From: Rhyacophila brunnea
Taxonomy: Eukaryota; Arthropoda; Insecta; Trichoptera; Rhyacophilidae
Assembly (NCBI GenBank): GCA_022495005.1
Contig: JAGYXB010001580.1
Coordinates: forward strand, 434,001 to 498,000
Length of the DNA: 64,000 bases
Direction: 5' to 3'
How positions within the stretch are numbered: the stretch's first letter is position 1; each line of letters opens with the position of its first letter. Positions 7,921 through 58,083 of this stretch are shown piece by piece. Made by a program: the position numbers and the translations under genes. The notes under the pieces are model-generated. The model was given only the letters and a program-made list of their open reading frames with translations, searched no databases and was not told where the DNA came from.

Positions 7921-8198
7921 TTAAACCAACATCGCAGATATCGGATTGAACCTCATAATTTTCGACAGCATAATCCAAAAGAAGCTTGTGACCGCACAAA
8001 GCGCGACACCTCCCCACCCGAGGTCCAGAGACCACGAAGTACTAAATATTCTTGCTCCGAGAAGATCCTGGCCCAAGCTGACTCCTCTCTGGCCTCCTAC
8101 TACTCCATCGATGCTGCCGTCTCCGTCGTTTGCTACTCGAGGTTTTCCCTGCATTCGTTTGAAGTGGATTATCATCAGGGTAAAGAGGGCGAATAAAG
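7921..8198 (-). CDS. Claudin-like protein, terminal exon E (TM3 end, loop 2, TM4, stop)
   Basis: Last coding exon, residues 164-255 and stop TAA at 7923-7921. The acceptor TTTTTCTTCCAG is strong. It finishes TM3 (LFALFTLMIIHF), then a hydrophilic, glycine-rich second loop with several basic residues, then FSTSWSLDLGWGG leading into TM4 (GVALCAVTSFFWIMLSKIM) and a short tail ending AMLV. The W-x-L-x-x-G-W lead-in to TM4 is claudin-like. No PDZ ligand of the classical claudin type (YV) is present, though the last residues LV are hydrophobic. Its GC content is clearly higher than the flanking AT-rich sequence. Confidence 0.9.
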
Positions 8199-9133
8199 CT
8201 GGAAGAAAAAGACAATAAGGATTTTATAATATAAGAGCAGCATGCACAATCTAAGATTTCGTTCCTAAGGATAAGTCGCCGAAAAGCATGACTTAACTAT
8301 AGACAATCCTGAGTATAGAGTTAAGGAATCCTTAACCATAGACTACTTTTGTTATGAACACGCCCCCTTCTGTATTACCATTTACCACTGACAGCTGCTG
8401 TCAAAATAAATTCGCATGTCTATAAAAAAGTCCATACACTCAAATTCATTTAACAATGTATCTCAATATGGATACTGATAGTGTTAATTCGTTTGGCATG
8501 TACTTGCAGAATATTATTTTACTTTTATACCCCAGCCCGCAGAAATATAAAATGCCAGGTGAAGAATGACACTTGACGCTAGTGTTACCATGTTAAAAAA
8601 ATATCTTGCGGTGCCTGTGGAATCACGTTTAATGACTTATAACGGAAACATAAAAGTATTATAATTAAATATTAATATGTATTTATAGTTATTGCATTTA
8701 TAAAATGCAGTTGTCATATTTATGTCATCGTTTAGCAATTATAAAATAATTTACCTAAACTATAGGAAAGAGAATTTTTAAATTATGGTATTATTTTCAA
8801 TAGAAATGATCTTAACTAACGACAATGTTTCTGCATAGTGTTTTCTGCTAAGGAAATTTTAGTTATGACAAATGTTTCTGCATTCCGATCTAAGATGGTA
8901 AACTGAGATAAGATAATGTATATTACAGTACAAAAAATGGGCGTATAGTTAAGTTATAAATTCAAGACGTTGACAGCATAAGACGTTCGGTCAAAAACAA
9001 AGCAATGTATAATTGAATTACTATAGTGTACTAAAAAACAGAACAATTAAAAGAGTAAATAAAAGTAGATCCTATTTTAAAATATATATAAAATAATGTC
9101 GACCTAAACTCACGCACGGAAGTGGGATATGTA

Positions 9134-10437
9134 CGAGGGTGGGTCAATAAGTCCTTAGAAAAGCCGACAGGTGGCGCGACTAGTACTGTAGTAAGCGGTT
9201 TGTTTTCATGCAGCGGCACTACCGATTCAGTATGCTGCGAAGTTTCAATCAGATTGGTCGGGTTGTTGTGTGTTTCTCGTGCATTTAAAAAAAAAATTTG
9301 CTTGTGGAAAATGGAAAAATGGAAAATGGAGAAAATTGAGTTTAGAGCTGTTATTAAACATTTTAATATAAAGGGTTAACAGCAAAGGAAATAAAAAATG
9401 AGTTGGATTTAGTTCACGGCATATCTGCTCCTTCACTTGCAACTATTTATAACTGGTTAAATGAATTTAAACGTGGTCGTACATCAACAAAGGATGAACC
9501 ACGCTCAGGACGTCCTGTAGAGGTGACTACACCAGAAATGATCAATAAAATCCACGATATGGTGTTAAGTGACCGAAGATTAAAGTTGAGTGAGATAATT
9601 GAGGTTACAGGATCTCAAAAGGTAGCGTCATTTCTATTTTACATGACAAATTGGGCATGAAAAAAATTTCTGCAAGATGGGTGCCGCGTTTGCTCACAGT
9701 CGACAATAAACGCAATAGGGTGGTGGCCTCTAAAGCCCTGTTGTCGCTCATGCAACGCAATCCGGATGAATTTTTTCGTCGCTTTGTGACTGTAGATGAA
9801 ACATGGATACACCACTATACTCCTGAGACGAAAGAACAGTCAAAGCAGTGGATTGCGAAGGCAAACCATGTCCAAAGAAGGCGAAAACCGTAAAATCAGC
9901 TGGTAAGGTTATGGCTACTGTATTTTGGGATGCACGTGAAATTATTTTCGTTGACTATTTGGAAAAAGGAAAAACAATAACAGGGGATTATTATGCATCT
10001 TTATTGGACCAGCTAAAAAACAAAATTGAAGAAAAACGGCCTCATTTAAACAGGAAAAAAATCCTCTTTCATCAGGACAATGCCCGTGTTCACACATGTT
10101 TACGATCAATGGCTAAAATTGAAGAATTGAAGTTCGAATTGGTCGACCACCCACCGTATTCGCCAGATTTAGCCCCCAGTGACTTTTTCCTTTTCCCAAA
10201 CTTAAAAAAATGGCTAAGTGGACAACGTTTTTTTTCAAATGAAGAAGTCATCGATCGGACAAATGCTTATTTTGAGGACCTTCCGAAAACTTATTTTTCT
10301 GACGGTTTAAAAAAAATTGAGAAACGTCTTACCAAGTGTATTGAGCTCCAAGGAGATTATGTTGAGAAATAAAAAAAAAATTCAAAAATAAAAACTGTTT
10401 TAATGCTTTTTTCTAAGGAATTATTGACCCAACCTCG
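9134..10437 (+). mobile_element. mariner-family DNA transposon, 1.3 kb, TA target duplication
   Basis: Terminal inverted repeats begin CGAGGGTGGGTCAATAAGTC on the left and, read on the minus strand, CGAGGTTGGGTCAATAATTC on the right. TA dinucleotides flank both ends (9132-9133 and 10438-10439). The length of 1304 bp is normal for mariner. It sits inside jockey-like copy J1: removing it restores alignment with the paralogous empty site at about 48920 (gtggaataaatcaacaccca). The transposase inside is broken, so this copy is non-autonomous. Confidence 0.95.
9309..10372 (+). pseudogene. mariner transposase, DD34D, three frameshifts
   Basis: Encodes a transposase of the Tc1/mariner superfamily that would cut and paste its element at TA sites. 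The frame starts at ATG 9309 (MEKWKMEKIEFRAVIKHFNI) and shifts near 9376, near 9620 and near 9855, so no intact protein can be made. Reading across the shifts shows the HTH region (YNWLNEFKRGRTS, then RSGRP), the motif ISARWVPRLL, first catalytic Asp in VDETWIHHYTPETKEQSK, second in FHQDNARVHT, and third in YSPDLAPSD. 34 residues separate the second and third Asp, the DD34D signature of mariner proper. The frame closes with ELQGDYVEK and TAA at 10370-10372. All three catalytic aspartates survive, so the damage is recent relative to substitution. Confidence 0.95.
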
Positions 10438-10589
10438 TATATCAATACCCGTAGTGAGTGATTGAACACAGTCATTGCCCTGCCAATTGGCATTACCGGT
10501 GGTACGTTAGTTCTGCACCTTATGATAACAAACAACTGATGTTCCCAATTTTTAAAATAAGTTATCAGGGACACACGACGGTTACATAA

Positions 10590-11000
10590 TATAATTTATA
10601 CGTAAAACATTTCACCGTGGCACAGTTCGCCGTGAGCTTTCTTATCGGAAAGAGATGACCGTATACTATACGGTCTCCAATTTTATTAGATTCAATATGA
10701 ACATTAATTCAATTTTCATAGCTGATTTTGGCAATATTCTTGAATAATTCAAGAATGAAAACCTAACCTAACCTAACAAATAATCCAGTATATCGGTTAT
10801 TTTTCAAAATTTGTTTGCTGCTGGCTTCCTGTAAAGTGTAAACCGACAAGAACCGTATTTTATTTAGACATGAATTTTATGTCAGTACTATACGATCCAA
10901 AGAGGTTGGACGGTCTTTAATATACGACCATATATATCCGATACAACATTTCACGGTGAAGTATGATACGGCGAACTGCATACGTACAAGTTTCGGACAC
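10590..11000. mobile_element. Foldback-type element FB2 with internal CCTAA tract
   Basis: Inverted motifs at the ends (acatttcaccgtggcacagt near 10607; its relatives cacggtgaa and cggcgaactg near 10950-10980), further inverted pieces inside (gaccgtatactatacggtct), and aacctaacctaacctaac at 10771-10788 near the middle. It interrupts J1 (the J alignment stops near 10588 and resumes near 11010). It shares atttcaccgtgg with FB1 at 56.1 kb. Exact ends are uncertain. Confidence 0.55.
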
Positions 11001-11448
11001 GCACATCCGACAATACTACCGAAAATGGCAGAACTCTCATTTACAGCGCGATAAGTGGGAAAAGTATGTGGCCAAATATAAATATAGTCTAAGGTTTAGA
11101 CTACAGTATGTAAGCATATCTAAAAGAAATTCGGCCTGATAAAGTAACGGATAGTATTCATACAGCCTCGAGTAAAGGAATTTATATTTTTTATAGCGTG
11201 ATTTCTTTATAAAAATGAGCTAGCTTGTCGTTGAATTTTCGTGCATGAAAATAGGAATGAGTAAATATCTTCATAGACACCTATTATTTCTATCTAAATA
11301 CGAGTATGATAATATATTTTTTTAAACCAGCTAATGTAATATTTCTTCTTCGTTTTCGTGTTGTTTGCCGTTAAGGATTGTGACTCTCTAGTAATCTATG
11401 CTTCATCACACTCTTTGACTTCATACTACAGAAGTCTATACCACCCGA

Positions 11449-12080
11449 CCGAGGCATATCTGTTACCCCTACGGTGAAGCTATGTGACCTGGAATATGCC
11501 GATGACGCTGTCCTATTCAACAACTCAGTCGAGGGCATTCAGGAGACAATCGACAGGTTGCATGACATCTCGTCTCGCGTTGGTTTAAAAATCAACGCGA
11601 AGAAAACCAAAGTTTTATGCAACAGCATCTGTAATGATGCTCAGTGTCTGGGCGCTTGCATTCTGACGGTGCTGCTTTACGGTAGCGAATCATGGCACCT
11701 TACTGAGGCTCAGAGCAACCGTATACTTGCTTCGAAAACAGATGTATGCGACGGATACTTGACTTTATGAGCAACGATGAGATAAGAGAACGCACCAAGC
11801 AGCCTCTCATCACGCTGAGAGTGAAGAGGCAACGTTGGACTTGGTTCGGCCACGTGCTGCGGATGCCAGAAGAGAATTTTAACCTGGCTAGCCTGTTCTT
11901 CAAGCCAACCGGATTACGGCGTCATGGAAGGCCGCTAAATACTGTATATAGAGTGTATACGGCGAAGCTACGGGATGCTGATTTGACCTGGAGCGATGCA
12001 AGAAGCAAGCGAGCGATAGGGATTTTTGGAGGCGCCTCATGGTGTCCATATGCTCTAACTAAGGGGCGAGTAATCCATGC
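11449..12080 (+). pseudogene. RTE-like reverse transcriptase fragment, family A copy 2
   Basis: Best copy of family A. It opens in the RT palm with GISVTPTVKLCDLEYADD; the catalytic YADD is at 11495-11506, followed by AVLFNNSVEGIQETIDRLHD and GLKINAKKTKVL. It then jumps directly to CILTVLLYGSESW, so the segment that normally lies between (the VNG...YLGS region and the following helices) is deleted. After a frameshift near 11750 it continues as NDEIRERTKQPL, RVKRQRWTWFGHVLRM, KPTGLRRHGRPLNT and LTWSDARSKRA to WCPYAL, the standard C-terminus of RTE/BovB-like elements. No endonuclease domain is present. It lies in intron D-E, opposite in strand to the host gene. Confidence 0.88.
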
Positions 12081-12424
12081 ATCTTCTCCTCTGTATGTGC
12101 TAATGGCATTGAGAGTTGTGTCCTTCACTTGGTCGGATCATCGAGTTAGCAACTCGACTCTCCCGCTGACAATAAGTCTTTCCAAATTATATTGGTTGTC
12201 CCCTGTGAGACATACTTTGAAGATCCGGTCCTTCACATGTATTTATTTCAGTTTCTATGTAAAGGAGACAAATTTGGCTGTTCGCAGATGAACGAAAATG
12301 AAAACAAATCCAATCAAAATCACAGTTAAATAATATGCGGATAGTTTAACATACTCGTATTACGCCGCGTTATCAAAGTATCTGACGTTATTTTATATAA
12401 CTATAATAATATAAAGGATCTCAC
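12081..12424. other. Intron sequence, nothing recognised
   Basis: Open frames continue across this stretch from the RTE relic but show no recognisable domain. Confidence 0.45.
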
Positions 12425-12562
12425 CTGCCAACAAATACATGACTCCAGTCACAAGGACCGCACTGATCTGGTGTTTACACACTCCGAAAGCACCAACCAG
12501 TGCAGCGCTGCCAAGGACGATTAGGCAGACCAGCGCGCAGGATATCGAAAGGTTCTGCATCC
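12425..12562 (-). CDS. Claudin-like protein, exon D (TM2 and most of TM3)
   Basis: Residues 118-163 plus the first base of codon 164. Joining CAC-A to GG-ATG gives HRMQNLSISCALVCLIVLG, the start of TM2. TM2 ends near GAFGVC146, followed by a short basic turn (KHQ) and TM3 starting ISAVLVTGVMYLLA. The donor is GCAG|GTGAGA. The acceptor TATAATTTAAG is weaker than the others but is the only one that keeps both the frame and the helix. The small cytoplasmic turn between TM2 and TM3 is typical of the family. Confidence 0.9.
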
Positions 12563-13380
12563 CTTAAATTATACAATAATGAAAATATAACCATTATTGA
12601 AAATCTGGTTTTGATTTTCAAATACCTATACATGTCTGTAGTTTCATCAATAATAGGTACAGTAGGTAGGTAACACAATATAGTCATCACCATGAAAACT
12701 CCGCCAAAGAATAACAGTGTGTCATTTGCTGAAAAAATATTTGAATATAATTTAATCATAAGCCTTAGTAACCGTTTTCAAGCCTCTCTTTCATATATTT
12801 AGGCTACGTTTTTATAGAAGGTTTCCTCAATGTATTTGGTGATATTATACTAAATCATAATAATATGTACACATAATTTTGAAAACAATTCTAAGAAAAT
12901 ATATTATAACCAATAGAAAAAATCTTTTTGAAAAAAGTAAGACACCCCGCAGGAATTTAACCTGCATCTCTCGGGTATCGCGCCCACGCACATATACCAC
13001 TATGCTAAAGAAGTCATACTTAATTGCGACAAATTTTAACTAATGGCTTTTAATATTCACTGAAGCGCTTTCCAAATTGACCTACTATTGGCGATGGGCT
13101 TTTGTATTTTAAATCAAAGTAGGTATTACTTTAATTACTAACCGACGTCACGGATCACTACAAGATTTTTTGTTTGTAACTTACTTGAACTTGCTAATAA
13201 TTTAAAATTAGTTTTTTTTTATATTCAACGAATAATTCACAAGATTTAAGAATGTAACATTCTAGTTATTGAACATACATAATTCAAAACACTTCTGAGA
13301 AAATATATTATTTATAACCAATAGAAAAAATCTTTTTGAAAAAAGTAAAACACCTGAGAGATTAATTAATTAGAACATAC
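12563..13380 (-). other. Intron C-D, filled with SINE-derived sequence
   Basis: 818-bp intron occupied by a minus-strand tRNA-derived SINE (family B) flanked by two direct copies of a segment of about 75 bp (12872-12947 and 13278-13354) sharing CAATAGAAAAAATCTTTTTG. Confidence 0.75.
12872..13354 (-). repeat. SINE family B (tRNA-derived) flanked by direct repeats
   Basis: The minus strand carries a tRNA-like head at about 12943-13010 with a degenerate B box (GGTTAAATTCC). The body matches the copy at 26.5-26.9 kb (ctaaccgacgtcacggatca on the plus strand here). A segment of about 75 bp occurs at both ends in direct orientation (12872-12947, 13278-13354), suggesting a partial second copy in tandem. 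Confidence 0.65.
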
Positions 13381-13500
13381 TGTGTTGCCAGTCAGCCCTC
13401 GGTTCTTCCCCTCTGGCTCCCTCCGTTCCACCAGCAAGATAATTGACGCAAGAGTGAGCCTTGGGGAACCCCACTCTAGACAGCAACACTATCTCTTCAT
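13381..13500 (-). CDS. Claudin-like protein, exon C (loop 1 second cysteine)
   Basis: 120-nt symmetric (phase 1-1) exon, residues 78-117 plus the first base of codon 118. The acceptor is AAATTTCAG and the donor CACA|GTATGT. It encodes DEEIVLLSRVGFPKAHSC followed by VNYLAGG and a glycine/glutamate-rich tail ending DWQH. C95 is the expected partner of C73 for the conserved loop-1 disulfide, with an unusually long spacing of 21 residues. The exon is too short to stand out as an ORF; I found it because exons B and D alone lacked the second loop cysteine. It lies immediately beside SINE-derived sequence on its 3' (left) side. Confidence 0.85.
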
Positions 13501-14097
13501 CTGAAATTTAATAGTAATTATGTATCTCTAGTATAATGCAGATACGATAGTTTTCATATTAATTACGCGTCGGAATAAGGGTTCTAGTTCTGTCATAATT
13601 TTGATAATCTTAGCTTAACTTAAATTTAATTCATAAAAGGATGACGGGCGAAAGAATGACGTCTGCTAGGCCAGAACTTCCCAACCAGTATCTCGCAAAA
13701 GCTATGCATCGAACCAGATATTAAAAAATCTCTTAAATAAACAAATACCTACCCCATTTAAAGAATTGGTTGCAATTTATAATTATTTTTTAGTGGGGTT
13801 TAAATATTTTTTTTTCATTTACGTCTAAAATGAAAATAATCCTCATTGTTTTTAATATTCGCCATGGCGTTTGTAGTTTGTTTTATGGTACATGTATGTT
13901 GCCATGGAATTGTCATACGTTTTCATTAGATTAGATAATATAATAAAGGTATTATATATTAAGCTATTTTTTACGTGAAATACGCAAAAAAATAAGTTAT
14001 TTTCGAGTTTGAAAAAAGTGCTAAATATTCTTCAGCGTGCCGCAATTTGAATAGGTAAACGTTATCTTCATAAATAAGCTACATTTATATCCGATCC

Positions 14098-14215
14098 TAG
14101 CCACTTCTCAACCTAATGAGTCCATAGATTTTTTGTTGCCAGATCCGGGATTCGAACCCGGGACCCACAACATTATAGGCAGACATTTATCTATTCGGCT
14201 ATTACGAGTGCCAAA
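14098..14215 (-). repeat. SINE family A, truncated copy (tRNA-like head)
   Basis: The minus strand has a B box GGTTCGAATCCC (within 14150-14163) and a degenerate A-box region near 14200. The body is shortened by an internal deletion (ccacttctcaacctaatgag joins the head). Confidence 0.7.
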
Positions 14216-14269
14216 ATGGGGCATAAATAAAACAAGAATAAAAAATATTCAACCATTATGGCAAGTATG

Positions 14270-14350
14270 TCTTCTTTCTGTGCCATCTCCGTTATCGGAC
14301 ATAGGCAATGATTTTTGTTATCTTCTCTCCGTCTGTAGGAAGCAGCGCAT
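14270..14350 (-). repeat. RTE 3'-end scrap
   Basis: cttctttctgtgccatctcc resembles the terminus of RTE-type insertions at 42895 and 60484. It is cut on the right by MITE M1. Confidence 0.4.
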
Positions 14351-14618
14351 CTTTTCTATACACAAGGCTGCTATCGGCGGCTATCGAGGGTAGTTTACCA
14401 TTGTATTGACGCGGTTAATTTTTACAATAAGTTAACCGTCTGAACTGTGTGAAAAGTACTATTTAACAGCACCTCTCTTGGTTAGGTTAACTTTTAGAGC
14501 GAGATACAGTTTTGACAATTTATACGGCTAACTTATTGTAACAATTATGATACCTCGATATATAAATATGATAAACTACCCTTTATAGCCGCCGATATCA
14601 GTCTTGTGTATAGAATAG
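14351..14618. mobile_element. MITE M1 copy 1
   Basis: 268-bp foldback with terminal inverted repeats of about 45 bp: left cttttctatacacaaggctg, right end on the minus strand ctattctatacacaagactg, both continuing to GGGTAGTTTA. A second inverted pair inside (acaataagttaaccg / ggctaacttattgtaa) extends the palindrome. It contains TTGGTTAGGTTAAC in the loop. The second copy is at 36235-36504. Confidence 0.85.
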
Positions 14619-14988
14619 ATCCGCACAAGTAGTTATTATTGCTAATAAAATGCCGCTCGATGTGGTCAAATTATGCTCAATTTTCAGTTTACTTCTTTGA
14701 TAAATTTCTTTGGTCCTTTTCATCCTCGATATTCGTAACTTTGTTTTTCGTTCCAGCTGATACGGAGTACTTATACATTTTTGTACACCCACATTGAGAA
14801 ACCTTCAAGTTCCCTGAGCGTTGTTTCTATGGACACTCCCAGAAGCAATGCTTGCATCACGTGTAGTAATACCTAAATGACGTAACAACTTACTATTCTT
14901 ATTTTTGTTTGAATCGTGGTTACATAGTATATTCCTTAGTCGTGGTATATGTTATATCCAAATATTAAACGAATTGTATGAGGATCAC

Positions 14989-15082
14989 CTGTCAAAGCGA
15001 CGCACAATGTCCAAATTCCACCATTCATTGGGACGAGAAAGGTGTTTCTGTTTGACCTGTCGGGGCGATTTTTCTCAACGAT
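14989..15082 (-). CDS. Claudin-like protein, exon B (loop 1 GxW-x2-C motif)
   Basis: Residues 47-77 plus the first base of codon 78. The acceptor is a pyrimidine-rich stretch ending TTTGTTGCAG and the donor is ACAG|GTGATC. The exon encodes the stretch ending NGGIWTLCVALT. W70 and C73 fit the W-x2-C half of the first-loop signature of claudin/CACNG-type proteins. The segment before it (residues 49-59) is charged and hydrophilic, as expected for an extracellular loop. It begins in phase 0, matching exon A, and ends in phase 1, matching the next exon. Confidence 0.87.
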
Positions 15083-15467
15083 CTGCAACAAATAAAAATA
15101 ATGTAAATAACAATAATATATACATTCTCGTTTGATATCGTATAATAATGCGTTTTGCTTCACCATTTCTGTTACAGATGACATGCTACATACGCCCAAA
15201 TATGGGTGATAACTTAACAGTTCTTTTTTTGATTAAGAATGATTTTAACTCATATAGTCAAGTCAAGTCGAGTTCGGAAATCCACACCTAGCAGTCGTGA
15301 CTGAGGACTGCTCGTACCCCACTTATCACCTACTTTTACCACTTCCCCGGGTATATTTCCCATCCTTAGACACTTTATGCTTTGATTTTTATTTATGAAC
15401 GTCTAGTCTGCAGCTATAATCACTGATGGAATGTCGAACTCACAAACGGTTATTGTATACTATAGGT

Positions 15468-15821
15468 CAGGGGTGGCGAACCTATGGCACGCGAGATGAA
15501 TTTACACGGCACGCGAATGAAAACTTGAATTGAATGAACGAAACGTAAATTTTCAAAATAGTTTTACAATAATAATGACGACATAGCCATGCGCTTTTCC
15601 TTCGGGTTTTAATATTATTTTTATCAATCGACGCGCAGATCGCATTGTACAAAAAATAGCAGGCAAAAAAACGAGCTGACTGCGAAAAATTGAGTAACCT
15701 GCGGCCCGCGGCGAAATTTTTCACCTAAAACAAACGAGACGACTGTTTGGCACGTCAGACAGTCGAAAAATATTTTTTGGTAAATTTTGGCTCGCGTATG
15801 TAAAAAGGTTCGCAAACCCTT
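15468..15821. mobile_element. hAT-type MITE with perfect 8-bp TSD
   Basis: Starts CAGGGGTGGCGAACCTATGG and ends with a degenerate partner (GGTTCGCAAACCCTT). The 8-mer CTATAGGT occurs exactly on both sides (15460-15467, 15822-15829). The interior includes the cggcccgcggcgaaattttt segment often seen in hAT derivatives. 354 bp, non-coding. Confidence 0.88.
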
Positions 15822-15829
15822 CTATAGGT

Positions 15830-18485: not shown

Positions 18486-19605
18486 GGGGTTGGGTATGAA
18501 TAATTAGTCGTATGGTATTTGGAATTGAAGATTTGCGATATCCCCAAAATATTTATGTAATATTGATTTATATATCCACTAGCAGAACTAGGTATATTTC
18601 AGTACCTACAGTTGACAATAGAATTGCGCAATAAATAGGCACGCTATATTATTACATAGTACTTTATTAATTTTGTCTGGGAATGCTTCTCATCTATAAT
18701 ATCATCTCTGGACCGCACACCACTGATGATGATATTACATTATTGTTAATTTTTAAGCAAATGTCTACAAAGTTTTATTTAACTAGATTGATCACAAAAA
18801 CACAAATAATTTCTCGAATTTTATTATTTTGTTTGCTATACCAATTCTTTATACTTAGTTTTCTTACTTGCAGACAGTGAAACAAACGAAACAGTAAATT
18901 TAAAAGTTTTTGACTTATTCATCACGCGAAGGCCCCTATGTACGATGACTGACTGATATTTCAAATTCAAAATGAATTCAAATATAGAACAAACGAAAAA
19001 AAAACTAATTTATATGGCTGTTTCGTGACAACGAAAGTCCCACGGTAATAATATTTTCATGTATTTTTATATTGGCAATTTTGCATTGAAATTGGGCAAT
19101 GTTCAGTGACAAAAGTATTTACTAACAAACCTTCTTCTGCTCTTCGGACGAATATGGAAATCGATTCAAAAATTATCGGAAGAAATCTGATTTAGAAAGG
19201 GGAAAAGGCGGTATCAGGATTAATACCCGCAGTCTAATTTTACAGAACAGGTTTATTTATAAACACCGTAAAATACAGAGTACCGAACGGTAAAAAAAAC
19301 TACGTGATAAGATTTCCATGCTTATAGAAAGAATAAAATTGGCCAGACGGCCCAGCTGACTGGATCAACTTAAGCTTCGCTCTTGAACTACCCTTTTCGT
19401 ACACATTTAGGATATTTCCAGAGGATCTCGTTTGCAACCTGTAATACTCTGCCATATTATGGACATTTGGGTCGGGAAAAAGTCAAAAATTGACTGGTAT
19501 GGTGGTTGGGAACCAAAGTGCGAGTTCAAAGGTTGCGGGTCCTTTACTGGTCTTTATATTTCGACATATTTCGGACCCTTGTCGATGTTAAGAATATTGT
19601 TTCGA
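18486..19605. other. Unassigned AT-rich intron sequence
   Basis: No gene recognised. The GC content rises abruptly near 19610 where the R1 element begins. Confidence 0.5.
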
Positions 19606-21905
19606 TTTCATGTTTCCGAAGTAGGGGTGGCAATGATCCGTGGGGCCCCCCCTTCCGCGTGATGAAGCTGGGCTTACGGCCCGGAAAAGTCATGTCGGCG
19701 GTACGGCGCCCCGACGGATCGTTCACCAATAGCTCTGAAGAGTCCGCCACAGTCCTGTTGGATGCTCTTATCCCGCAGGACAACGAGTCGCTCGACATTG
19801 ACAACGACCGATTTCAGCAGCTTCGCGTCTATGCGCTGCTCCCCTTAAACACTCCGCGATCCGCAGCCACTACCATGTCCGAACTAGGGATCCTGTTTGC
19901 CAGCCTCCCGATTGGCAAAGCCCCGGGGCTTGACTGCATAGATAACGCGCTAGCGAGAAGGGCGTGGTCTCTTGCCTCACACGAGATCACGCAACTCTAC
20001 AAAGAATGCATGAGTAGTGGCATATTCCCCGACTGCTGGAAAAAGGGTCATCTCACGGTGATCCCCAAAGCCGGCAGTCGCCCTCCTTGTGACCCGAAAG
20101 CGTATAGACCGATTACGCTCTTTCCCGTCTTCGGGAAGATATTGGAAAGATTGATAAACAGCAGGATTGAGTCCCACCTGTCGGAAAACTGTCCAATCTC
20201 GCAAAGACAATTTGGGTTTAGACCCGGAAAGTCCACCGAGGATGCGATTCGCTTTGTGATCGATTCTGTGGAGAGCTCTGGCAAGGACCTCGTTGCCGGG
20301 ATTTTTCTCGACATAGCGGGCGCGTTTGATACTGCGTGGTGGCCCTTGGTTCTGGCAAAGCTTAGGCTGAAACAGATCCCCGGGGACCTCTTTGCCTTAG
20401 TTCAAAGCTACTTCAGCAATAGGGAGATAACCTACGACTCCGGCCCCAGCCTGATTCACAGGAGGACCACCATGGGGTGTCCCCAGGGCTCCGTCCTGGG
20501 ACCCCTTCTGTGGAACATTCTGTTTGACGACGTTCTGTCCCTGCCACTGCCTCCGGGCTGCACGCTCGTTGCGTACGCCGACGACTTGCTCCTGCTTGTT
20601 GGGGCGACCAGCCGACCGGTACTTGAGCGTGCAGCCACGGACGCCTTGGGCAGAATCCTTAATTGGGGGTTGCTGAACAAGCTGACCTTTGCCCCGAGCA
20701 AAACGGAAGCTGTCCTCCTCAGGGGTAGTTCTCGGGTCAACATAACTCGACGGCCGCCCACGGTTCGTTTTGGCCAGACCTCAGTGCGTTTCTCCGAAAG
20801 GGTTACGTATCTGGGAGTAATTCTTGATGACAAGCTGTCTTTCGTTCACCACGCCAAGACGGCCGTCTCTAAGGCCAATTCGGCCTATCAGAGAATGGCC
20901 CGAATGGCGGGCAGCAATTGGGGACTTAAGCCTAGAGCCCTTAAGGTTGCATACGGCGCAATTTTCATGGGAATTGCCGGTTACGCCTCCAGCATTTGGC
21001 ATTCTCGAGTAAACTCCTTAACTCTCGTGAGACGCGCACTATTAAGCGGGCAGCGACTTGCGCTGATCTCGCTTACCAAAGCCTACCGCACAACTTCTAC
21101 TGACGCGCTTGCCGTACTCGCGGGGGTGCTACCCCTCGATCTGCACGTCCAAGTCAGAGGATCGATCACCCTCCTCTTGAGGGGGATCAGCACAATACTC
21201 GCCGGTGTCCATCTGACACCACCGCAGAGATCCGAGGACGTTCCTTACAGGAAGACTGTAAGTGACATTGTGTACAAGACCGCATTTGCGGCATGGCAGG
21301 CGAGGTGGACCGCCTCCCCCAAGGGGCGGCACACTTACCGTTTTTTTCCAGACGTATTCTGCAGGCACCAAACTAGAAGACTCCAACCTTCGCACTGGAT
21401 TAGCCAGTTCCTCACCGGCCATGGCAACTTCGCCGCCAGACTCCACGAGTTTGGCTTGATAGTAGATGGGCCGGGTTGTACCTGCGGGCATGACCACCAA
21501 GATGTTGAACACATCCTCTGGGATTGCCCGCTTATGGAATTCGAACGAGCGGAGCTGTTTGCCAGGGTCCGTCCTCACACGGGCCCAATTGGTCATGGAG
21601 ATCTGGTAGCAACCGAGGCCAACTTTGCGGCATTTGAGAAATTTGCAGCGTCGTATGGGGAGCGGGATAGTCCCGACTCTTCTGTAGACTCATCCATTTC
21701 AATTCGTGACACTCAGTATGCGGGTACACAAAGCGCTTAACGTCAGCGGACAGCAGAGCCAGTCCAAAAACAAACATTTTCTTTCTTAACTTTCTTCTTT
21801 CAGCACTACGGTGCATGGTTGCAGCATCAGTCCCGTGCGGCTCCGTCTCGGGACGGAATGAGCACTTAAAATCACTTCTTTCAGACACGTTTAAAGCGTC
21901 ATAGA
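19606..21905 (+). mobile_element. R1-clade non-LTR retrotransposon, 5'-truncated
   Basis: GC-rich island (clearly above 50 percent by eye) in an AT-rich intron, containing an open ORF2 C-terminal two-thirds and about 160 bp of 3' UTR. No poly(A) or clear target duplication is visible. The left edge near 19606 is placed where homology to R1-type pre-RT sequence begins; the right edge is approximate because a Penelope-like fragment starts soon after (21960). Confidence 0.8.
19614..21740 (+). CDS. R1-clade reverse transcriptase (ORF2, 5'-truncated, open)
   Basis: Uninterrupted frame (open from 19506) to TAA at 21738-21740. It encodes the reverse transcriptase of an R1/TRAS/SART-type element, which copies element RNA into DNA at a nicked target. 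Credible homology begins near GGNDPWGPPFRVM (pre-RT). Then come the RT blocks LPIGKAPGLDCIDNAL, WKKGHLTVIPK, YRPITLFPVFGKILERLI, QFGFRPGKSTEDAI, FLDIAGAFDTAWW, GCPQGSVLGPLLWN and the catalytic VAYADD (YADD at 20574-20585). A C-terminal CCHC knuckle follows (CTCGHDHQDVEHILWDC, about 21477-21527). The N-terminal apurinic-type endonuclease and ORF1 are missing. The frame has no stop or shift over 2.1 kb, so the copy is young or transposed recently. The residues before GGND are probably flank. Confidence 0.93.
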   Translation, partial: FRSRGGNDPWGPPFRVMKLGLRPGKVMSAVRRPDGSFTNSSEESATVLLDALIPQDNESLDIDNDRFQQLRVYALLPLNTPRSAATTMSELGILFASLPIGKAPGLDCIDNALARRAWSLASHEITQLYKECMSSGIFPDCWKKGHLTVIPKAGSRPPCDPKAYRPITLFPVFGKILERLINSRIESHLSENCPISQRQFGFRPGKSTEDAIRFVIDSVESSGKDLVAGIFLDIAGAFDTAWWPLVLAKLRLKQIPGDLFALVQSYFSNREITYDSGPSLIHRRTTMGCPQGSVLGPLLWNILFDDVLSLPLPPGCTLVAYADDLLLLVGATSRPVLERAATDALGRILNWGLLNKLTFAPSKTEAVLLRGSSRVNITRRPPTVRFGQTSVRFSERVTYLGVILDDKLSFVHHAKTAVSKANSAYQRMARMAGSNWGLKPRALKVAYGAIFMGIAGYASSIWHSRVNSLTLVRRALLSGQRLALISLTKAYRTTSTDALAVLAGVLPLDLHVQVRGSITLLLRGISTILAGVHLTPPQRSEDVPYRKTVSDIVYKTAFAAWQARWTASPKGRHTYRFFPDVFCRHQTRRLQPSHWISQFLTGHGNFAARLHEFGLIVDGPGCTCGHDHQDVEHILWDCPLMEFERAELFARVRPHTGPIGHGDLVATEANFAAFEKFAASYGERDSPDSSVDSSISIRDTQYAGTQSA

Positions 21906-21983
21906 AAGCGGCCGTGCATATCCACGGTTGTGCATATATGACGGGTGGTGGTGGGCACTTTAACGTATCCTAGCTATCCTATC

Positions 21984-22295
21984 TTTAGCTGTCGCGGATA
22001 CCCAAAAAAGTATATAGGCCAAACTTCTAAAACAGTAAAGAAGCGTGTGAGTGAACACGAGAGGGCATACCGACTTAAACATTACACGATGTCAGCAATT
22101 GCCGAGCACTCGATGGATACAGGACACAAATTTGACTTTAAAACCAAGATATTGGGTCGGAATAAAGAATATTTCGCACGATTGGTAAAAGAGGCCATTG
22201 AAATCTATAGAAACCCTGAAAATATTAATAGGGATGATGGATTACGGTTAAAAACGTCATGGCTTCCGGCACTATCAGCAAAATCCAATATTTGA
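21984..22295 (+). pseudogene. GIY-YIG endonuclease domain of a Penelope-like element (truncated)
   Basis: The C-terminal domain of a Penelope-like polyprotein, which nicks the target for the linked reverse transcriptase. It shows CRGYPKKYIGQTSKTVKKRV with the YIG half of the GIY-YIG motif and the conserved arginine helix, then SEHERAYRLKHYTMSAIAEH, TGHKFDFKTKILGR, and a final VKEAIEIYRNPENINRDDG ending LPALSAKSNI. The frame is open to TGA at 22293-22295, but the RT domain is absent upstream, where an R1 element's 3' end lies instead. A 5'-truncated relic; the domain itself looks intact. Confidence 0.88.
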
Positions 22296-22433
22296 GCCGG
22301 TATCTCTGGTCCTAAAGATTGACACATTACTCTGAGCAATGTTTTCTCTTAGCTAATCAGATTCCTTTTGACATTCTTAGAGCAACGTTTACATTCATAT
22401 ACCTACACTACATTTCATCATAAAACATATCAT

Positions 22434-22471
22434 TTCTTGATAATGGCCTCTGCAACGAGCCCGAAACGTCG
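22434..22471 (+). ncRNA. Hammerhead-like motif in Penelope-like 3' end, copy 1
   Basis: cTTGATAATGGCCTCTGCAA then CGAGCCCGAAACGTCG. The order is a CUGAUGA-like box (here UUGAUAA), a short stem II (GGCCUC / GAGCCC, imperfect), GAAA and an A-C/G-U helix followed by UC, as in the minimal hammerheads known from Penelope-like elements. Two core positions differ from consensus, so activity is doubtful. Confidence 0.45.
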
Positions 22472-22510
22472 AGGAAAGAAGGAAGAAGGACACACGGTGG
22501 AAACCCTAAA

Positions 22511-23468
22511 ATCTAAAAAACAACCGTGAAAGCCTCAAACAGTAAATGATGTATTATTAATTAAATTAAATGCAAATTTTATCGTAGTGATTCCACTTTT
22601 ATTAAATATAACTGGACCGGTTTCGTCCGTATAAATATTTTAATTATATTTAGAGAAGTGAAGGTTTTAGTTAACGTCGCTGAGTTACATCAACATACTA
22701 AATAAATTTAGATAATGATGATTGGGATATCAACAGAGCTAATTTCTCAGTGAAAGAATTGCCAAATATTTGCCATAAAAATTATATGACCTACAGTACC
22801 TAAAACAATAAATTATTCAAATTTTATCAGCGACAATAAAATTTTAATCTACAATTTGGCTTTGTTTGAATTCATTTGAATTAAAACTTCAAAACCAATT
22901 CGAATTATAAACAGAATGCAATATTAAATTGCGGCAATCGTAAAACTTTATTATTAGAATCGATTAAATATGAAATTAACTGACTTTTGCTGGGATATTG
23001 AAATCGTGAATAATTCCTGTGGCGCATAGAAATCACTTAAATTTAATTCATGCCTTATTTACGAGACTATAAACTGCTGGCGTTTACTTTGAAACACGGC
23101 TTGCCAACATGTTTGACGTAATTTATAGCTATAATATAATACAATCGGAAAAGTAGAAGACATACCCATACAGGTAATATTAAAAATAACATAATTCACC
23201 ACTGTTTTACAATTATCAATTACCGATTCATTCAATATAATATTTTGCACGTAATATGGCATCACTATACAATATAACGTCACATTATTTTCGGTATTTG
23301 AACCCCCTTTCCCCCATTCATCATTACATTTATTTACAACATCTTTTATCTCCCTTCACATTATTTGTCCATTGTAATAATAATGTAATATTTTATTCTC
23401 AGAAATAAATTAGTAAGTATAATATATTTTGTTGGTATTATTTGCTTAATTATTTTCTTTTGTTTTTT
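22511..23468. other. AT-rich intron with a Q-family fragment
   Basis: A minus-strand Q-family piece lies at 22588-22665 with the core GGACCGGTTTCGTCC at 22614-22628. The rest is unassigned. Confidence 0.55.
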
Positions 23469-50005: not shown

Positions 50006-50057
50006 AATATCTATGTAATTGAAAGAACTTTGTAGAATTGTTTCAGGTTCTTACGAC

Positions 50058-50155: not shown

Positions 50156-50164
50156 CATAAAACT

Positions 50165-50850: not shown

Positions 50851-52185
50851 AATGATCACTGACCACATATAACAGCTCAGTGATGTCATCTTCGGAAAGA
50901 CTGGAACCCTGACATTGAGATAAATCAGAATTGAGACGGCAAGCACGACTTTTGAAAAAAATATCTCTTCTGCAATCGAGACGTAAGTCTTGGTAACTGT
51001 ACATTGCATTCTAAATTGATCAGCATACTTAAAACATGCACGTTGAATGATCGGGTCATCAAAATACTGGAGATTTAAATACTTGATTGAATAATTGACA
51101 TTTTAATCCATTAAAATATCTAGTGCCCTATATTTCTAATCACAAGTAATATTAACCGAGTTTTAAGAGCCCATTTTTCTGGTACTTCTATAAAGTGAAC
51201 ACACCTCTTATCTCCTTTATAGCTTCCTGTATCCTCCTGATTCTCCATTCATTCTTACGAAATAGCTTTTTAGAATATACTTTGTCACATCTAAGGGTAA
51301 TATCAACCCCTAAAGTGCCCAGATCTCAATGCAAAACTCGTTACCTACCTTATACCCTGTGCTTATAACTTACTAAATTTATAGCTGGTACCTTACGAGA
51401 AAGATTACGTCGCAGTATTTCGCTTTAAACGTTGCTTAAAAGCTCCACATGGAAACGTCAAAGCAATGAGGGCCTATCAGACGTTTACATCAAATTGACA
51501 TAATGAGATTTTGTTTTATTTATTTCATATCAATATAGATTTTAAATTCTGGGAAATTTGATCGATTTATGACAAGTATGGATTTGGTAGTTTCAAGATA
51601 GATACAAATACAGCATTGACTGATTTTTTTAACATTCCTCTGCCCGTACCTCACCTCATATTGTTGAAAATTATTGACAGTATTGACACCGATTTTTTTA
51701 AATATCTATCAGCGGACTCCTCGACCATGAGGGAGTTAATTAATGATTAAATACTTTCTGTTGTAACAGCGTGGTGATGTGATATCAAGTTCTTATATTT
51801 CTATTTTTTATGCTATTGCCAGATGGAGCATATCGCAAATAGCCCAGTAGCAAACACTCCTTACTAAACGGTAGTAAAATATTTTTTTATTACGAGCATT
51901 CAATATAGTATGTATGTTAATTACTTAATTATTTTTATGATATGCATATTAATAAAAAATCTACATACCGAGTGACGTCTATACCGACATACCTACATAA
52001 TTTATAGTTGTTTTTAATAATTAATCTTTTTTTGTCGAATTATTATTGAATTATTAAAGGGTGTATTTTAAGCCCGGTAGATCATTAAATTGTAAAAAAT
52101 AACATAATAAATAAACTTTAAAAAAATCGATACATAGCATTAACATTTGAAATTGGTCATACCGCGTATCGCGTCATCGTACCGC
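50851..52185. other. Unassigned intron sequence
   Basis: AT-rich. No gene recognised. Confidence 0.5.
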
Positions 52186-52189
52186 GGCT

Positions 52190-52790
52190 GGTCTTGATTA
52201 TTTCATTCAGTGCATTCTGGACGTCCAATTTTAGGCCACTTTTTCAAGCACAGGCTGTAGGTATATTATGAATAACACGAACAATGTTGGCTTCTAAGGC
52301 GTCAATTATTGCTGGTTTGTCAGTATAAATCAGTGACTTCACGAACCCTCACAGGTATCTAGAGGTCAAAAGAGTGTAAAATCGCCCGACCTTTGAGGCC
52401 AATTGACATATTCTTTGTTTCTTGAAATCAACTTATCGCCACATTTTGATTTTAATAAGTTAATAGTTGTGATCGCCGTATGGCATATAGTGCTATCCTG
52501 TTGAAACCACTTCTCGTTCGGATCAATTTTATCGATATTCTTAAAAAAAACATTCATCGTGGTCTGGTGACGATGCCCATTGACCGAAACGCGAGCTCCG
52601 GTCTCACATTTGAATAAATGAGGTCTGATGATGCCGCCAGCGTATAACCGCACCAAACGGTATATGTTTGTAGATGTAATGGAGATTGTAGATTCTCTTC
52701 TGGATTGGTCAATTTTGCTTACTAACAAACTCGTTAACACAAAAATGAGCCTCATTGCTAAACGCGATGATTATTATATACGTTATTGTG
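52190..52790 (-). pseudogene. Tc1/mariner-superfamily transposase, second type, decayed
   Basis: On the minus strand, the middle is a 129-codon open stretch (52755-52366): LVRLYAGGIIRPHLFK, then VNGHRHQTTMNVFFKN, EKWFQQDSTICHTA (catalytic Asp retained) and INLLKSKCGDKLISRNK ... NWPQRSGDF. After a stop it continues as FVKSLIYTDKPAIIDALEAN and IVRVIHNIPTACA to about 52190. The spacing between the Asp of QQD and that of GDF is 37 residues, unlike the DD34D mariner at 9.3 kb. No terminal repeats were identified, so it is an isolated relic. Confidence 0.82.
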
Positions 52791-52794
52791 GAAT

Positions 52795-53310
52795 AATTAT
52801 GGAAGAATAATCTAGAATACATTCAATATTATTCAAAATGAAGACACCATCTGACGATTGAGTATCAAAACAATGTGGATTTGATATAGGTCCATATTAA
52901 TAATATCATAATATCGTAGTAAAAAATGGCAAGCAATAGAAAAAATAAAAGCTTTTAATTACACAAGGGAATGTGAAGCTTTGTTTAAATTGTGAAATTA
53001 TTATTCTCCGTTTTTACTGAATATAAAACGAAAAATCTCACAAGTCTCTAGAGTCAAGAGAAATTAACCGAATTATTATAATTTAATTTTCACATTATGA
53101 AAAATAATCCTTCTCTTATAAAAACGGCCAGTTTTCTTTTCGTTAATAATAAATATGATAAAAGCAGTATGGGTACCTACTTCAAAGAATTTTAGCTAAA
53201 GGAAGTCATATTTAAACTTGTTGAAATACAATAGGTACTAAATTTGTGGATATCGATTCCACAGTATGGTTAGTGTAGTTTAATCGGTACCCTCAGTTAA
53301 AATCAAACAC
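52795..53310. other. Unassigned intron sequence
   Basis: Nothing recognised. Confidence 0.5.
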
Positions 53311-53313
53311 TAT

Positions 53314-54525
53314 TTGACTTCATTCTGATAGTGCTGCTTTACCGCAGAGATTCGTTGAACCTTACGAAAGCTCAGAGTAACCGTATACTGAGCTTCGAGA
53401 ATATAATATGTTTGCGGTATTGGGTGTGCAGTTGTATAACTTTAGGAGGAACGAGGAGATAAGAGAGCGGGCAATGCAGCATTTAATCATACTGAGAGTG
53501 AAGAAGCGACGCTTAACCTGTTCCTTCAAACCAACAGGATTCCATGAAATGGGGAAATGAAAGAAAACTAGCGAATAACAGGAATTCTTAAGCCCATATT
53601 CCATTGGCAGATTGCGTCTGGCCCGATCGTCTGCCACGACTGTCGAACTCTATTCTCTATGGTTTTCAAGGATCGTGAGCGATCGGGTCGAAAGTGGAAA
53701 ATTTTCTATTATCCGTCGTGCGATCCTTTCATTATCAAGCGAAGATTGCCGAAAGCGTACGAAAATAGCCGAATATGCGCCTGAGTCATGCAAACGGTCG
53801 TTCATTTCATTCTACTGGTCGATTTCAACTGAACAACTACAAGATGGCGAAAACTTAAAAATATATATGGAGTATCACCGAGGACACAGTCCTCGTCGAA
53901 TAAATACACGCCAAAGATATAGTGTGGAACGTAAAAAAAAACCCGCCATATTCAATGGCGATCACGCTGTTCTTCAGTTAGCCAACTTTTGACCCAGTGT
54001 TTTCGTTTACGGCGAGTCCTGACCGCCTGAGCCAGTTGAAATATAGCCATACTCGCTACAATAAATTAGTCTTTCGATTATTCGATTTCGATATTCGAAT
54101 TACTCAATTGGTTTGGAGATTGAAGCTCGCCCAGTTATTCATGATGTAAATTAACAATAAGTATACAAACTTTCTATAAATGTCAAACGGCCGCATAAAT
54201 TTTAACAGATCTGATGCTCGCTAGGTTTGACAGCTGACAGCTCAGTTTTGTTGACGTGAAATTGCGCGGGAATGCGTTCAGTGTAGCCACCAATCTAAGA
54301 AATATCTAGTTTTCACTCAACCTATATTTTTAATAACACTAGTATTATTTTAACCAATCAAATCAAGGACCAACGAGATTGAATCGTTGCGTGTAATTGC
54401 AAATAGCTAGCGACGACGGTTGGCGTCGATCGTTGGATCGGGTTGGGTCTGTGCGTCTGCCAATGGAATATGGCCTTTAGAGGCGCCTTATATCGTCAAC
54501 ATGCTGAACGGAAGAAGAATAAAAA
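53314..54525 (+). pseudogene. RTE-like family A copy 3, interrupted by PIF/Harbinger-like element
   Basis: 53314-53590 aligns with copies at 2.5 and 11.6 kb (cattctgatagtgctgcttt; gagataagagagcggg). The alignment resumes at 54477 with ttagaggcgccttatatcgt, the continuation seen at about 12027 in copy 2. Decayed, with deletions. Confidence 0.78.
53591..54476. mobile_element. PIF/Harbinger-like element, TTA target duplication
   Basis: Termini AGCCCATATTCCATTGGCAG (left) and AGGCCATATTCCATTGGCAG (right, minus strand). TTA flanks both sides (53588-53590, 54477-54479), the target choice of PIF/Harbinger elements. Its limits are confirmed by the interrupted RTE copy around it. 886 bp. It contains a 126-codon ORF (53612-53992) with no similarity I recognise. 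Confidence 0.85.
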
Positions 54526-54689
54526 ATAGAGCATCTGTGGTATGTATTTTTACGTCATTATATTGTATGTATGCCATACACGATTTTTGTGATTGAACAA
54601 TATTTGAAATAATTTTTATTCAATATATTTAGCTGCTTATATATGTATGTACAATAATAATCGAAGTGATTCATTTTTACAGGCAGTGG

Positions 54690-55195
54690 TCGCGTTTTTT
54701 GCAGTGGACTGTAATTTGAAGATGCTGGTGGTGGATTACGGATATAGGGGGGGGGGGTTAACGGGATGCCAGACACTGACCTTTTATGTTGAGAGAGCTG
54801 GCGCGCGCTGGAGCTGGTTCATTATTCACGCACTCACGCACTGGTAAACGGACGGTTCGGAACGTCATTCTCACGGTTTCACTTTTATTTTGGGGTAAAT
54901 GATGATGAAAAGTTCAAGATGGATTTGTTGGTTGGTTAGATGGTTGCTCAAACCATATCAGATTTACCGAAACGAAGGTCGAACATATGCGTTTTGGCTG
55001 AATTACTCTGTAGTTAACGTCGGCTTAGCTTTAACAAGCCTAGGCGCGTCCGCTGTCTTAGAGTAACTAAACTTAACTTCCATCACGGTCGGTCATGACC
55101 CGTGACTGGTGGTCGCTTGGTCTTGTGACAATAATTGGGGATTTGAGGTTGGTGGAAGGAAAGAATTAATGCGGCTATAATTTGCCCAACCAGGC
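54690..55195 (+). repeat. Dispersed repeat U, copy 2
   Basis: Plus-strand partner of 3690-4265, beginning tttgcagtggactgtaattt and running through the G homopolymer at 54750 to ggttggtggaaggaaagaat. Confidence 0.7.
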
Positions 55196-56047
55196 AATTA
55201 TAGCAACATTTTTCATTATAAAGTAAATGTTTTGATTTTGGTACAAGTCGACCATATTTAAAAAATATATATAATGTTACTTCTACATACTCATTTTGTT
55301 CTCAGTTTCCGTCTATATAGAAAATGATTTAATAATTGAAAATATTTTGTTCAATCAACAATATAATAGGTAACAAAATAATGATGATGTAAGAAAGAGC
55401 ATAATTCATTAGGGTTTAGCACTTCGCAACAGTACATGTTATTGATTATTAAAATCCTTGTAAAACAACGCAGAAAATACTATTTTATTAATCTGAAAAC
55501 ACAGCAAAAATTTATTCCGAAAGGCATTAATGTTCCCATTAATTTTCCTATCTAGGTCATAGCTTTAAAGCGCTCTCTCGTAACTGGAGCCATCTGCGAT
55601 GAAGAAAGAAAAAAAAATAACCAAGAAAAATCTCCAAGAAACATGAAAAACTTTCATCGCTACTGCACTCATGAACTTTCACTTCGAGTATATCAACTTA
55701 ATGTACATAAATAGTATTACGAAAATCTATATAGACTATTTTTCAAATTCCAAGTAATGGATATCACACGACCTATCATTCACGACATGTTTGTTATCGT
55801 ATTTTTATGCGATTCATGATATAAAATAAAAATGTCTTAATAACGGAAAATCGTATGAGTTTAGATTCAATCGCTATACGTATAAAAACCTCAAAATAAA
55901 TCTACACTTTCTAAAACATCACAAAGAAAGAATATTGATTATTATACTTAATTTCAGTGGTTTTTAAACTATTTATTTTGTATCTAAATATTTTCTATCG
56001 GTGCGGCGTCCCGGTTACATGTAAGTTGTACGTATGCAGTTCATTGT
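55196..56047. other. Unassigned AT-rich intron sequence
   Basis: Nothing recognised. Confidence 0.5.
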
Positions 56048-56404
56048 AGGACACTTATTCGTGCACCGCTGTACGTGAAACATGAGTTCGTATAACATTT
56101 TATCAAATGACGAGTTCTTCGTTGAACATTTCACCGTGGAATACATTTGTACGTATCTTACAAAATGTGGCGGTAGTTTGCAAATAGTACGGTTCCAATT
56201 AGATTAACCCTAACCTAACCTAACCTAGTAAAGACATCTCATAAAATACGTATTGAATCTAATTGAAACAGCAAACTAGCGCCACATGTTGTAGCATACG
56301 TACAAATATACCCCACGGTGAAATATTCAACGAAAAACTCGTCATTTGATTAAATGTTATACGAACTCATGTTTCACGTACTGCGGCACACGAATAAGTG
56401 TCCT
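56048..56404. mobile_element. Foldback element FB1 with central CCTAA tract
   Basis: Two arms of about 150 bp are inverted copies (left AGGACACTTATTCGTGCACC; right on the minus strand AGGACACTTATTCGTGTGCC; shared gaaacatgagttcgtataac and atttcaccgtgg), roughly 90 percent identical by eye. The centre is ccctaacctaacctaaccta at 56207-56226. Non-coding. Confidence 0.88.
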
Positions 56405-56409
56405 GCGGA

Positions 56410-56690
56410 GAACTGTTTGTGGTGTTGACGCCGAATGCTTCGCATTTCTTGGACGGAGCACAGGACGAACCAGTCAATCATCCAGAGACTGAAGATAAAG
56501 GAACGGCTCTCGACGATATGTCTGAGAAGAATTCTACAGTTTTTTGGACATATTGTCAGGCGCAGACCGGACGACCTGGAGAGACTGGTAGTTTTGGGTA
56601 GCCTCCAGGGAATTAGAATTTAAATGTGGTCACGATCCTCAGCCATGAGTGCACGACCAAGATGAGGTGAACAGTTTACCTACAAATTTC
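56410..56690 (+). pseudogene. RTE-like C-terminus (family Z)
   Basis: MLRISWTEHRTNQSIIQRLK, then IKERLSTICLRRILQFFGHI, RRRPDDLERLVVLGSLQGIR, stop, then SRSSAMSARP. This is the standard sequence of motifs after the LYGxETW block in RTE-like elements. One stop, missing the end. Confidence 0.78.
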
Positions 56691-56709
56691 CGGATACAGG
56701 CGTCCCAAC

Positions 56710-56860
56710 AAAATATAAATTATTAGGATAGTGTAGCTTGCTGTGGGTACTCGCGTAAACCCAAGAGATGCAGGTTCGATCCTGCCGGGTGGCTTACTTT
56801 TTTCAAAAGGATTTTTTCTATTGGTTAAAATATAATTTCTTAGAAGTGTTTTTCAATAAT
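56710..56860 (+). repeat. SINE family B copy
   Basis: Head with ATGCAGGTTCGATCCTGC (B box), then ttttttctattggttaaaat shared with the 12.9-kb and 13.3-kb copies. Confidence 0.7.
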
Positions 56861-56876
56861 ATGTATGTTTTTTTTT

Positions 56877-57112
56877 TCGACCATGTCCGATCCTAATAGG
56901 ATCATATGGGCCTCCACAGAGTAGAGGTTTGTATTAACAGATTTTGTTTTTACGAGAAATGGATGTCAGCCACTTGCTCAACCTATTAAGTCCATACCCT
57001 GACTCACACACAAATTTAAAAACAATATGTGTACTTGCCAGACCCAGGATTCGAACCTGGGACCCACGGCATGATAGTTCAACGCTTAAGCCGCATGGCT
57101 ACCGTGGGCCAA
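56877..57112 (-). repeat. SINE family A, well-preserved copy
   Basis: Minus-strand head cggtagccatgcggcttaag, B box CAGGTTCGAATCCTGG, full body to ggatcggacatggtcg. Confidence 0.87.
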
Positions 57113-57114
57113 AC

Positions 57115-57944
57115 CATTGTTAACTTCAGGCGATATTATATACGAGGCATACAGGTAGGTTTACTCCTTGCAGCGGCTCTGTATACGCTTACATATTATA
57201 GAAGGCACTGAAGCGTATTTTCCCGGATGTATTTATTTCGTCAATCACGCAAATGATTAGCTCTTCGGCTGTCTTTATCCCTCGAGTATTGCTGAGTGGT
57301 GAAGCTATTAATTTATGTTAAACACTGATATTTTAAGGCTTCTATGATAAAATATTAAAGCTTAAAATAAAATATGTAATAACCGACAAAAGCCTTTATC
57401 GCTTCTCGGGGACAATAGCGGCAGCCATTTGCATAAGCTTGTACTTGGAATTATGCTAAATGTAATAATGCATTTATTCACTTAATATAGTGACGTAAAA
57501 TATACACGTTTTTTTCTACGGTTTATTATATTTGATGAAGATTTTAAAGCATGGCCCCCACACCCTGAACCGGGCCAGTGAACCCCAGGGCCAGCAGTTT
57601 CAAAAAAATATAGATAGAATATAGAATACATTCGAGTAAAAACTGCTGCGTGTTATGTAAGCAATACCGGTTTTTGATATCTCGATTTACCGATTAAATA
57701 ACTAGATTTCATAACCGGTAATCCGGTATTTTTCATAATTTAAAAAAATATTTTTAGTTTAATTATTTGCCTGAGTTATAAAACTACAATATTATTTAAT
57801 GAAATTATCGTAGCTGCAACGGTAAGTGACGGCAATAAGATACTGTCACTGGGTTCTCTTCCAACCTCTTCATTAAGTACCTAGGAGGGGTGGTAGTAAT
57901 AGGTAGCCACCAACGTAATAAATTATATAATGAAATTCACTCAC
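57115..57944. other. Intron sequence next to exon A
   Basis: Includes an ataccggt-rich patch (57664-57735) recalling the hAT element at 37 kb. No boundaries found. Confidence 0.4.
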
Positions 57945-58083
57945 CCTAACTACCTTACCGTCCAGGTACCATTGCAGTGACACAGCTGAACCATTCGCCA
58001 AGACATCGAGAAGTCCTCTGCTCCACGTCACGTTCTCCCAATGGTCAGTCATTATTGCCGCGCACAACATCGCCGTCGAGCAA
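57945..58083 (-). CDS. Claudin-like protein, exon A (end of TM1, start of loop 1)
   Basis: First visible coding exon, residues 1-46 of the joined product. It begins after TTTGACAG with one base completing a codon from an upstream exon outside the window, and ends AGG|GTGAGTG in phase 0. Residues CSTAMLCAAIMT look like the outer end of TM1. The rest is extracellular loop 1, with N-glycosylation sequons N17-V-T and N30-G-S and tryptophans W15, W20 and W38. A second GTAAG donor 13 nt upstream (GTAAG at about 57958-57954) would break the frame into exon B, so the 57945 boundary is preferred. The next exon is 42.9 kb downstream. I assign it to this gene by phase, orientation and continuity of the loop, not by transcript evidence. 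Confidence 0.82.

Follow-up and report, generated by a model that had tools for sequence, protein, structure and literature searches.

A stretch of 64,000 nucleotides (nt) from the caddisfly Rhyacophila brunnea (contig JAGYXB010001580.1, positions 434,001 to 498,000), in the following referred to as the window, contains five small exons on the minus strand that are scattered over some 50 kb. This raises the question of whether such distant pieces belong to a single gene and, if so, what kind of protein it encodes. An initial annotation had joined them into one claudin-like gene. Our analysis makes it very likely that the five exons represent the 3' part of one protein-coding gene, predicted to be an orthologue of a pancrustacean family within the claudin superfamily.

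Five exons and their counterparts in orthologues

Exon A (58083-57945, 139 nt) encodes the end of the first transmembrane helix (TM1) and the start of the first extracellular loop (joined-peptide residues 1-46). Loop 1 is continued by exon B (15082-14989, 94 nt), which carries the motif FLVPM-GGIW-xx-C with the first loop cysteine, and by exon C (13500-13381, 120 nt), which provides the second cysteine with 21 residues between the two. Exon D (12562-12425, 138 nt), the most conserved exon, encodes TM2 and part of TM3, and exon E (8198-7921, 278 nt) the remaining TM3, the second loop, TM4, a short C-terminus and a TAA stop codon. Exons A to D are bordered by AG and GT, and exon E is preceded by AG. 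The phases, as read from the window sequence, are 0 at A/B and 1 at B/C, C/D and D/E, and at its 5' end exon A is owed two bases of a codon by an upstream exon. When joined, the exons yield an open frame of 255 residues followed by the stop. They cover 50,163 nt, of which 769 nt are exon, and are separated by introns of 42,862 nt (A-B, 15083-57944) and, as calculated from the exon coordinates, of 1,488 nt (B-C), 818 nt (C-D) and 4,226 nt (D-E).

Most of the proposed gene structure was thus borne out: five minus-strand exons of 94-278 nt with compatible phases and a spread of at least 50 kb. The 120-nt exon had been postulated from the absence of a second loop cysteine, and it lies exactly at 13500-13381 in the right phase; both loop cysteines are invariant in the 64 orthologues (of 151 fetched) that were aligned for conservation. 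The 255 residues had further been described as a four-TM protein. Here, the joined peptide holds, but not the complete four-TM protein, as the start codon and the greater part of TM1 would lie on an exon that was not found in the window.

A search of the joined peptide against 5.8 billion proteins, a check that the initial annotation had suggested, returned 276 relatives at E<=1e-3, of which the 120 best were listed and used for per-exon tests. The top match reached 70% identity, the best beetle, moth and fly proteins 66-71% across the full query, and 101 of the 120 covered 99-100% of it. All named relatives among the best 120 were insects, comprising beetles, moths, butterflies, flies, wasps, bees, ants, sawflies, bugs, a lacewing and an orthopteran, and decapod crustaceans appeared among the matches listed when the search was started from an orthopteran family member. 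In an alignment with 19 of the 120 orthologues the window peptide was aligned throughout.

The assignment of the exons to a single gene is supported exon by exon. In tblastn searches at E<=1, exons A to E were matched by 117, 119, 117, 120 and 120 of the 120 orthologues, and at E<=1e-3 still by 117, 117, 116, 120 and 120. All five exons were matched by 114 orthologues, in 113 of them in order, and the remaining six missed one or two exons. The reversed window gave only two high-scoring segment pairs with the same queries (E 0.45 and 0.59). Outside the exons, the true window gave 14 stray clusters of one to three queries each; two of these matches reached E<=1e-3, both from the retroelement-like start of one moth model, P0097. 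Residues 6-41 of this Plutella model resemble window positions 11755-11862 (plus strand, E 1.7e-4), which adjoin a reverse-transcriptase fragment, and P0097 may therefore be fused to a retroelement.

Among seven sequences compared, three of the four junctions were gapless in the alignment, the exception being C/D. Extra residues are inserted at this site in some models from mosquitoes, flies and midges as well as from two beetles, a butterfly and a bee, as would be expected of an intron position. In many Diptera models the insertion comprises about 11 residues of the type SESQ.SLHPHL placed exactly at the junction, and in Anopheles nili it is present in isoform P0063 and absent from isoform P0022. 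No counterpart was seen by eye in the 818-nt C-D intron of the window. Six Drosophila models (P0126-P0130 and P0132; 491-511 residues) end soon after the C/D position and lack the MQNLSIS block that begins TM2; they represent either a real short form or a truncated annotation.

A tree was built from the window protein and 59 of the 151 fetched orthologues. It placed the window protein as sister to Lepidoptera (97/89), with this pair beside Diptera (98/93), a position that would fit a caddisfly but might also fit a basal moth or a further order of this group; the tree had no sequence labelled as coming from any of these. When the exons were considered separately, A, B and D were nearest to or tied with Lepidoptera, C was nearest to beetles and the lacewing, and E slightly nearer to flies.

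Superfamily membership

Loop 1 of the window protein reads GGIWTLC, and a second cysteine follows after 21 residues. This corresponds to G-[LI]-W-x2-C with a second loop-1 cysteine, which we take to be the signature of the superfamily and which is visible in MP20 and TARP sequences. The pattern matched 58 of 64 orthologues, in which the two cysteines are spaced by 19-23 residues; the other six are outside this count. Matches to the Pfam family Claudin_2 (PF13903) at E<=0.01 were obtained for 46 of the 64 orthologues (best 1.3e-10) and to PF00822 for 12. Other weak Pfam matches (DUF7775 in 11 of 64, best E 0.0016; DUF2721 in three; others in one or two) were taken as chance. In a predicted model of one orthologue, four helices form a bundle and the first loop a beta sheet, and the structural matches listed for it include TARPs, MP20 and claudins. 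In addition, an orthologue profile was compared with MP20, TARP gamma-2 and claudin-15, -19 and -4, using reversed and shuffled controls, and MP20 was the nearest of the five. Together, the data support that the protein is a member of the PMP22/EMP/MP20/claudin superfamily.

Several points speak against this view of the locus and its product. The gene model and its splice junctions are predictions from sequence, a misjoin of the assembly could be concealed within the 43-kb intron, and no first coding exon was recognisable in 58084-64000 by either an N-terminal hidden Markov model (HMM) or a search for hydrophobic frames. The joined, N-terminally incomplete peptide itself matched Claudin_2 with E 6e-4 and 20.1 bits at a cut-off of 29.1, and the orthologue used for folding had no Claudin_2 match at E<=0.01 and a weak, sub-cut-off match to DUF2721. 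No PDB chain was found by sequence with either the single peptide or the 64-row profile, and the profile match to MP20, which rests on one sequence, had a probability of 29.6%.

The family, found in insects and decapod crustaceans, is uncharacterised, most named relatives being labelled 'uncharacterized' or 'hypothetical'. NCBIfam gave no match for three orthologues, and a limited literature search, which says little about the literature at large, found no published description of the family.

The 5' end and the long intron

In orthologue P0004, TM1 comprises residues 23-47. As the start of exon A aligns with residue 37, only about 11 of the 25 TM1 residues are present, and the missing exon would be expected to encode a stretch like HPSVFFLLGTLLLT of the orthologues. 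The N-terminal HMM, built from 105 orthologue N-termini, was run on the true and the reversed window. On the true window it gave 11.2 bits for exon A (11 residues) and 7.4 bits for the next best hit; the best score on the reversed window was 8.4 bits, which was exceeded by exon A only. The HMM is short, was applied without a trial on a gene of known first exon, and is weak for a small or diverged exon. Two ATG-to-GT hydrophobic frames starting at 62290 and 61137, found by searching 58100-64000, were by eye unlike the orthologue N-termini, and an N-terminal-like match at 43454-43338 (E 0.017) was interrupted by a stop. As no 5' exon was recognisable upstream of exon A, the gene probably continues beyond window position 64000, with a total span of more than 56 kb. 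Among the 151 orthologue models, eight begin at an internal methionine in this region (MLCxxIM) and one later (MSDHW), perhaps because a distant first exon was overlooked in these annotations, too.

The A-B intron contains interspersed repeats and a plus-strand reverse-transcriptase frame of 748 codons (19494-21740; PF00078, E 5.7e-34), perhaps of a long interspersed nuclear element. In two Trichoptera genomes, introns average 1.1-1.4 kb and genes 12-14 kb, and the G+C content is 31.6 and 32.8% (excerpt of PMC10914795). An intron of 43 kb is therefore long for a caddisfly, and the G+C content of the window (0.29-0.42 per 4-kb block) lies near the values of the two genomes.

Transposon remains occur elsewhere in the window as well. 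Mariner-type transposase pieces in different frames lie on the plus strand within the D-E intron (9367-10372; Transposase_1, E 1.4e-21; HTH_32 below cut-off), and a further reverse-transcriptase fragment spans 11384-11770 (E 4.5e-6, below cut-off). At 59831-60818, two 90-nt arms with 100% complementarity stand 808 nt apart, and this region resembles a recent terminal-inverted-repeat element; a 90-91% copy of its part 60080-60387 lies at 22205-22515. Altogether, the window holds 15 direct-repeat families and 25 inverted-repeat pairs of at least 60 nt, many of them inside the long intron. Besides the joined peptide, 25 of the 71 frames of at least 80 codons were scanned against Pfam, and the only non-transposon match was to Fn3_Dep-1 (21942-22295), below threshold with 19.7 versus 26 bits. 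No hits were obtained with Rfam at its gathering threshold or in a tRNA search.

Possible role and relation to known proteins

With 43 kb and repeats separating it from exon B, exon A might belong to a different gene, whether a paralogue or a fragment left stranded; in that case, exons B to E would form the real gene together with a first exon lying nearer. This is very improbable, because order and strand fit, the phase is 0 on both sides of A/B and the junction is aligned without a gap. The off-exon matches at E<=1e-3 came from a single model with a retroelement-like start, and no nearer copy of a first exon scored above the reversed window with the HMM. Once the five exons are taken as one gene, the product could act in the paracellular barrier as a septate-junction claudin comparable to Sinuous, Megatrachea or Kune-kune. 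Three claudins are described in Drosophila septate junctions (excerpt of PMC4582180), which provides a precedent, and the superfamily is shared. We nevertheless consider this unlikely, as the loop cysteines are 21 residues apart here compared to 9 in mouse claudin-15, and the profile matched none of claudin-15, -19 and -4 above the controls, the three fly claudins being outside this comparison. Also, the loops are variable and the helices conserved: among the 64 orthologues, mean column identity was 0.89 in TM2 and TM3, 0.82 in TM4 and 0.72 in TM1, as opposed to 0.58 in loop 1 and 0.46 in loop 2. Thus, the term claudin-like holds at the level of the superfamily, but membership among the barrier claudins is not supported.

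The fold matches would instead favour an auxiliary subunit of the TARP type (CACNG-GSG1 family), serving glutamate receptors or calcium channels, but the TARPs lead by only about one Z unit, and the profile did not match TARP gamma-2 above the controls. The motif YSYGWSF precedes TM4 in the CACNG-GSG1 family (excerpt of PMC7653359). At this position, as placed by eye, the window protein has FSTSWSL, which agrees in three of seven residues; of these, W and S occur in MP20, too. The window protein ends with ISAMLV, which is not a class 1 PDZ ligand, although MLV may be read as class 2. Most TARPs carry a C-terminal PDZ-binding motif. No conserved C-terminal motif was found among the 64 orthologues, whose last four residues vary (SMIN in 11, AMIA in 9, and others). 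A TARP-like function is therefore improbable.

The reading that we prefer for the gene product is a small membrane protein of four helices, with TM1 mostly encoded by the missing upstream exon, whose transcript would have to cross a 43-kb intron containing transposable elements. Judging from the orthologue's model, the first extracellular loop may fold as a small beta sheet, in which a disulphide probably links the two conserved cysteines, and TM3 and TM4 would be connected by a second loop. In claudins, both ends are intracellular and the first outer loop is the larger one (excerpt of PMC4582180). The conserved surfaces of TM2-TM3 and TM4 might hold a fixed partner within the membrane: a conserved membrane face together with free loops points to a partner located alongside it more than to a cell-cell seal. 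From this pattern of conservation we tentatively propose that, within a membrane complex, the protein serves as an accessory or organising subunit and not as a paracellular seal. For exon D, mean identity is 98% to the counterparts in eight moths and butterflies, compared to 73% for those in three decapods. Because the TM2-TM3 hairpin is so constrained, with exon D 98% identical to moths, one may speculate, with considerable doubt, that the family is a pancrustacean-specific branch apart from barrier claudins and TARPs and an obligate accessory subunit of one conserved membrane complex of arthropods.

Apart from its very long intron, the locus is an ordinary orthologue, and the interest lies in the family more than in the locus. 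Long introns as such are already known; what the locus illustrates is that raw sequence can suffice to recover a gene of whose span 1.5% is coding, and it draws attention to a membrane protein that is well conserved in insects and crustaceans and mostly labelled uncharacterised.

The closest known counterparts are uncharacterised orthologues, among them LOC108914133 (Anoplophora), LOC114240669 (Bombyx mandarina) and LOC11175743 (Anopheles gambiae), to which 99-100% of the query was aligned at 70, 68 and 59% identity. All three share the loop cysteines and the TM2-TM3 block and have SKIMR close to the end, but they differ from the window in that their N-terminus is present, and both loop 1 and the C/D junction of the A. 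gambiae model contain additional residues. In MP20, the lens fibre membrane intrinsic protein of the PMP22/EMP/MP20 branch, loop 1 is much shorter, with four residues between the cysteines; insect members of this branch were outside the comparison. TARP gamma subunits were the best fold matches to the predicted model among the matches listed, but they are set apart by the profile result, by YSYGWSF, which is not kept here, and by their C-terminal end, which is unconserved in the present family. Claudins are alike in fold (claudin-15 and a synthetic claudin-4) and in the W-C-C pattern of loop 1, and differ in cysteine spacing and in the lack of a profile match.
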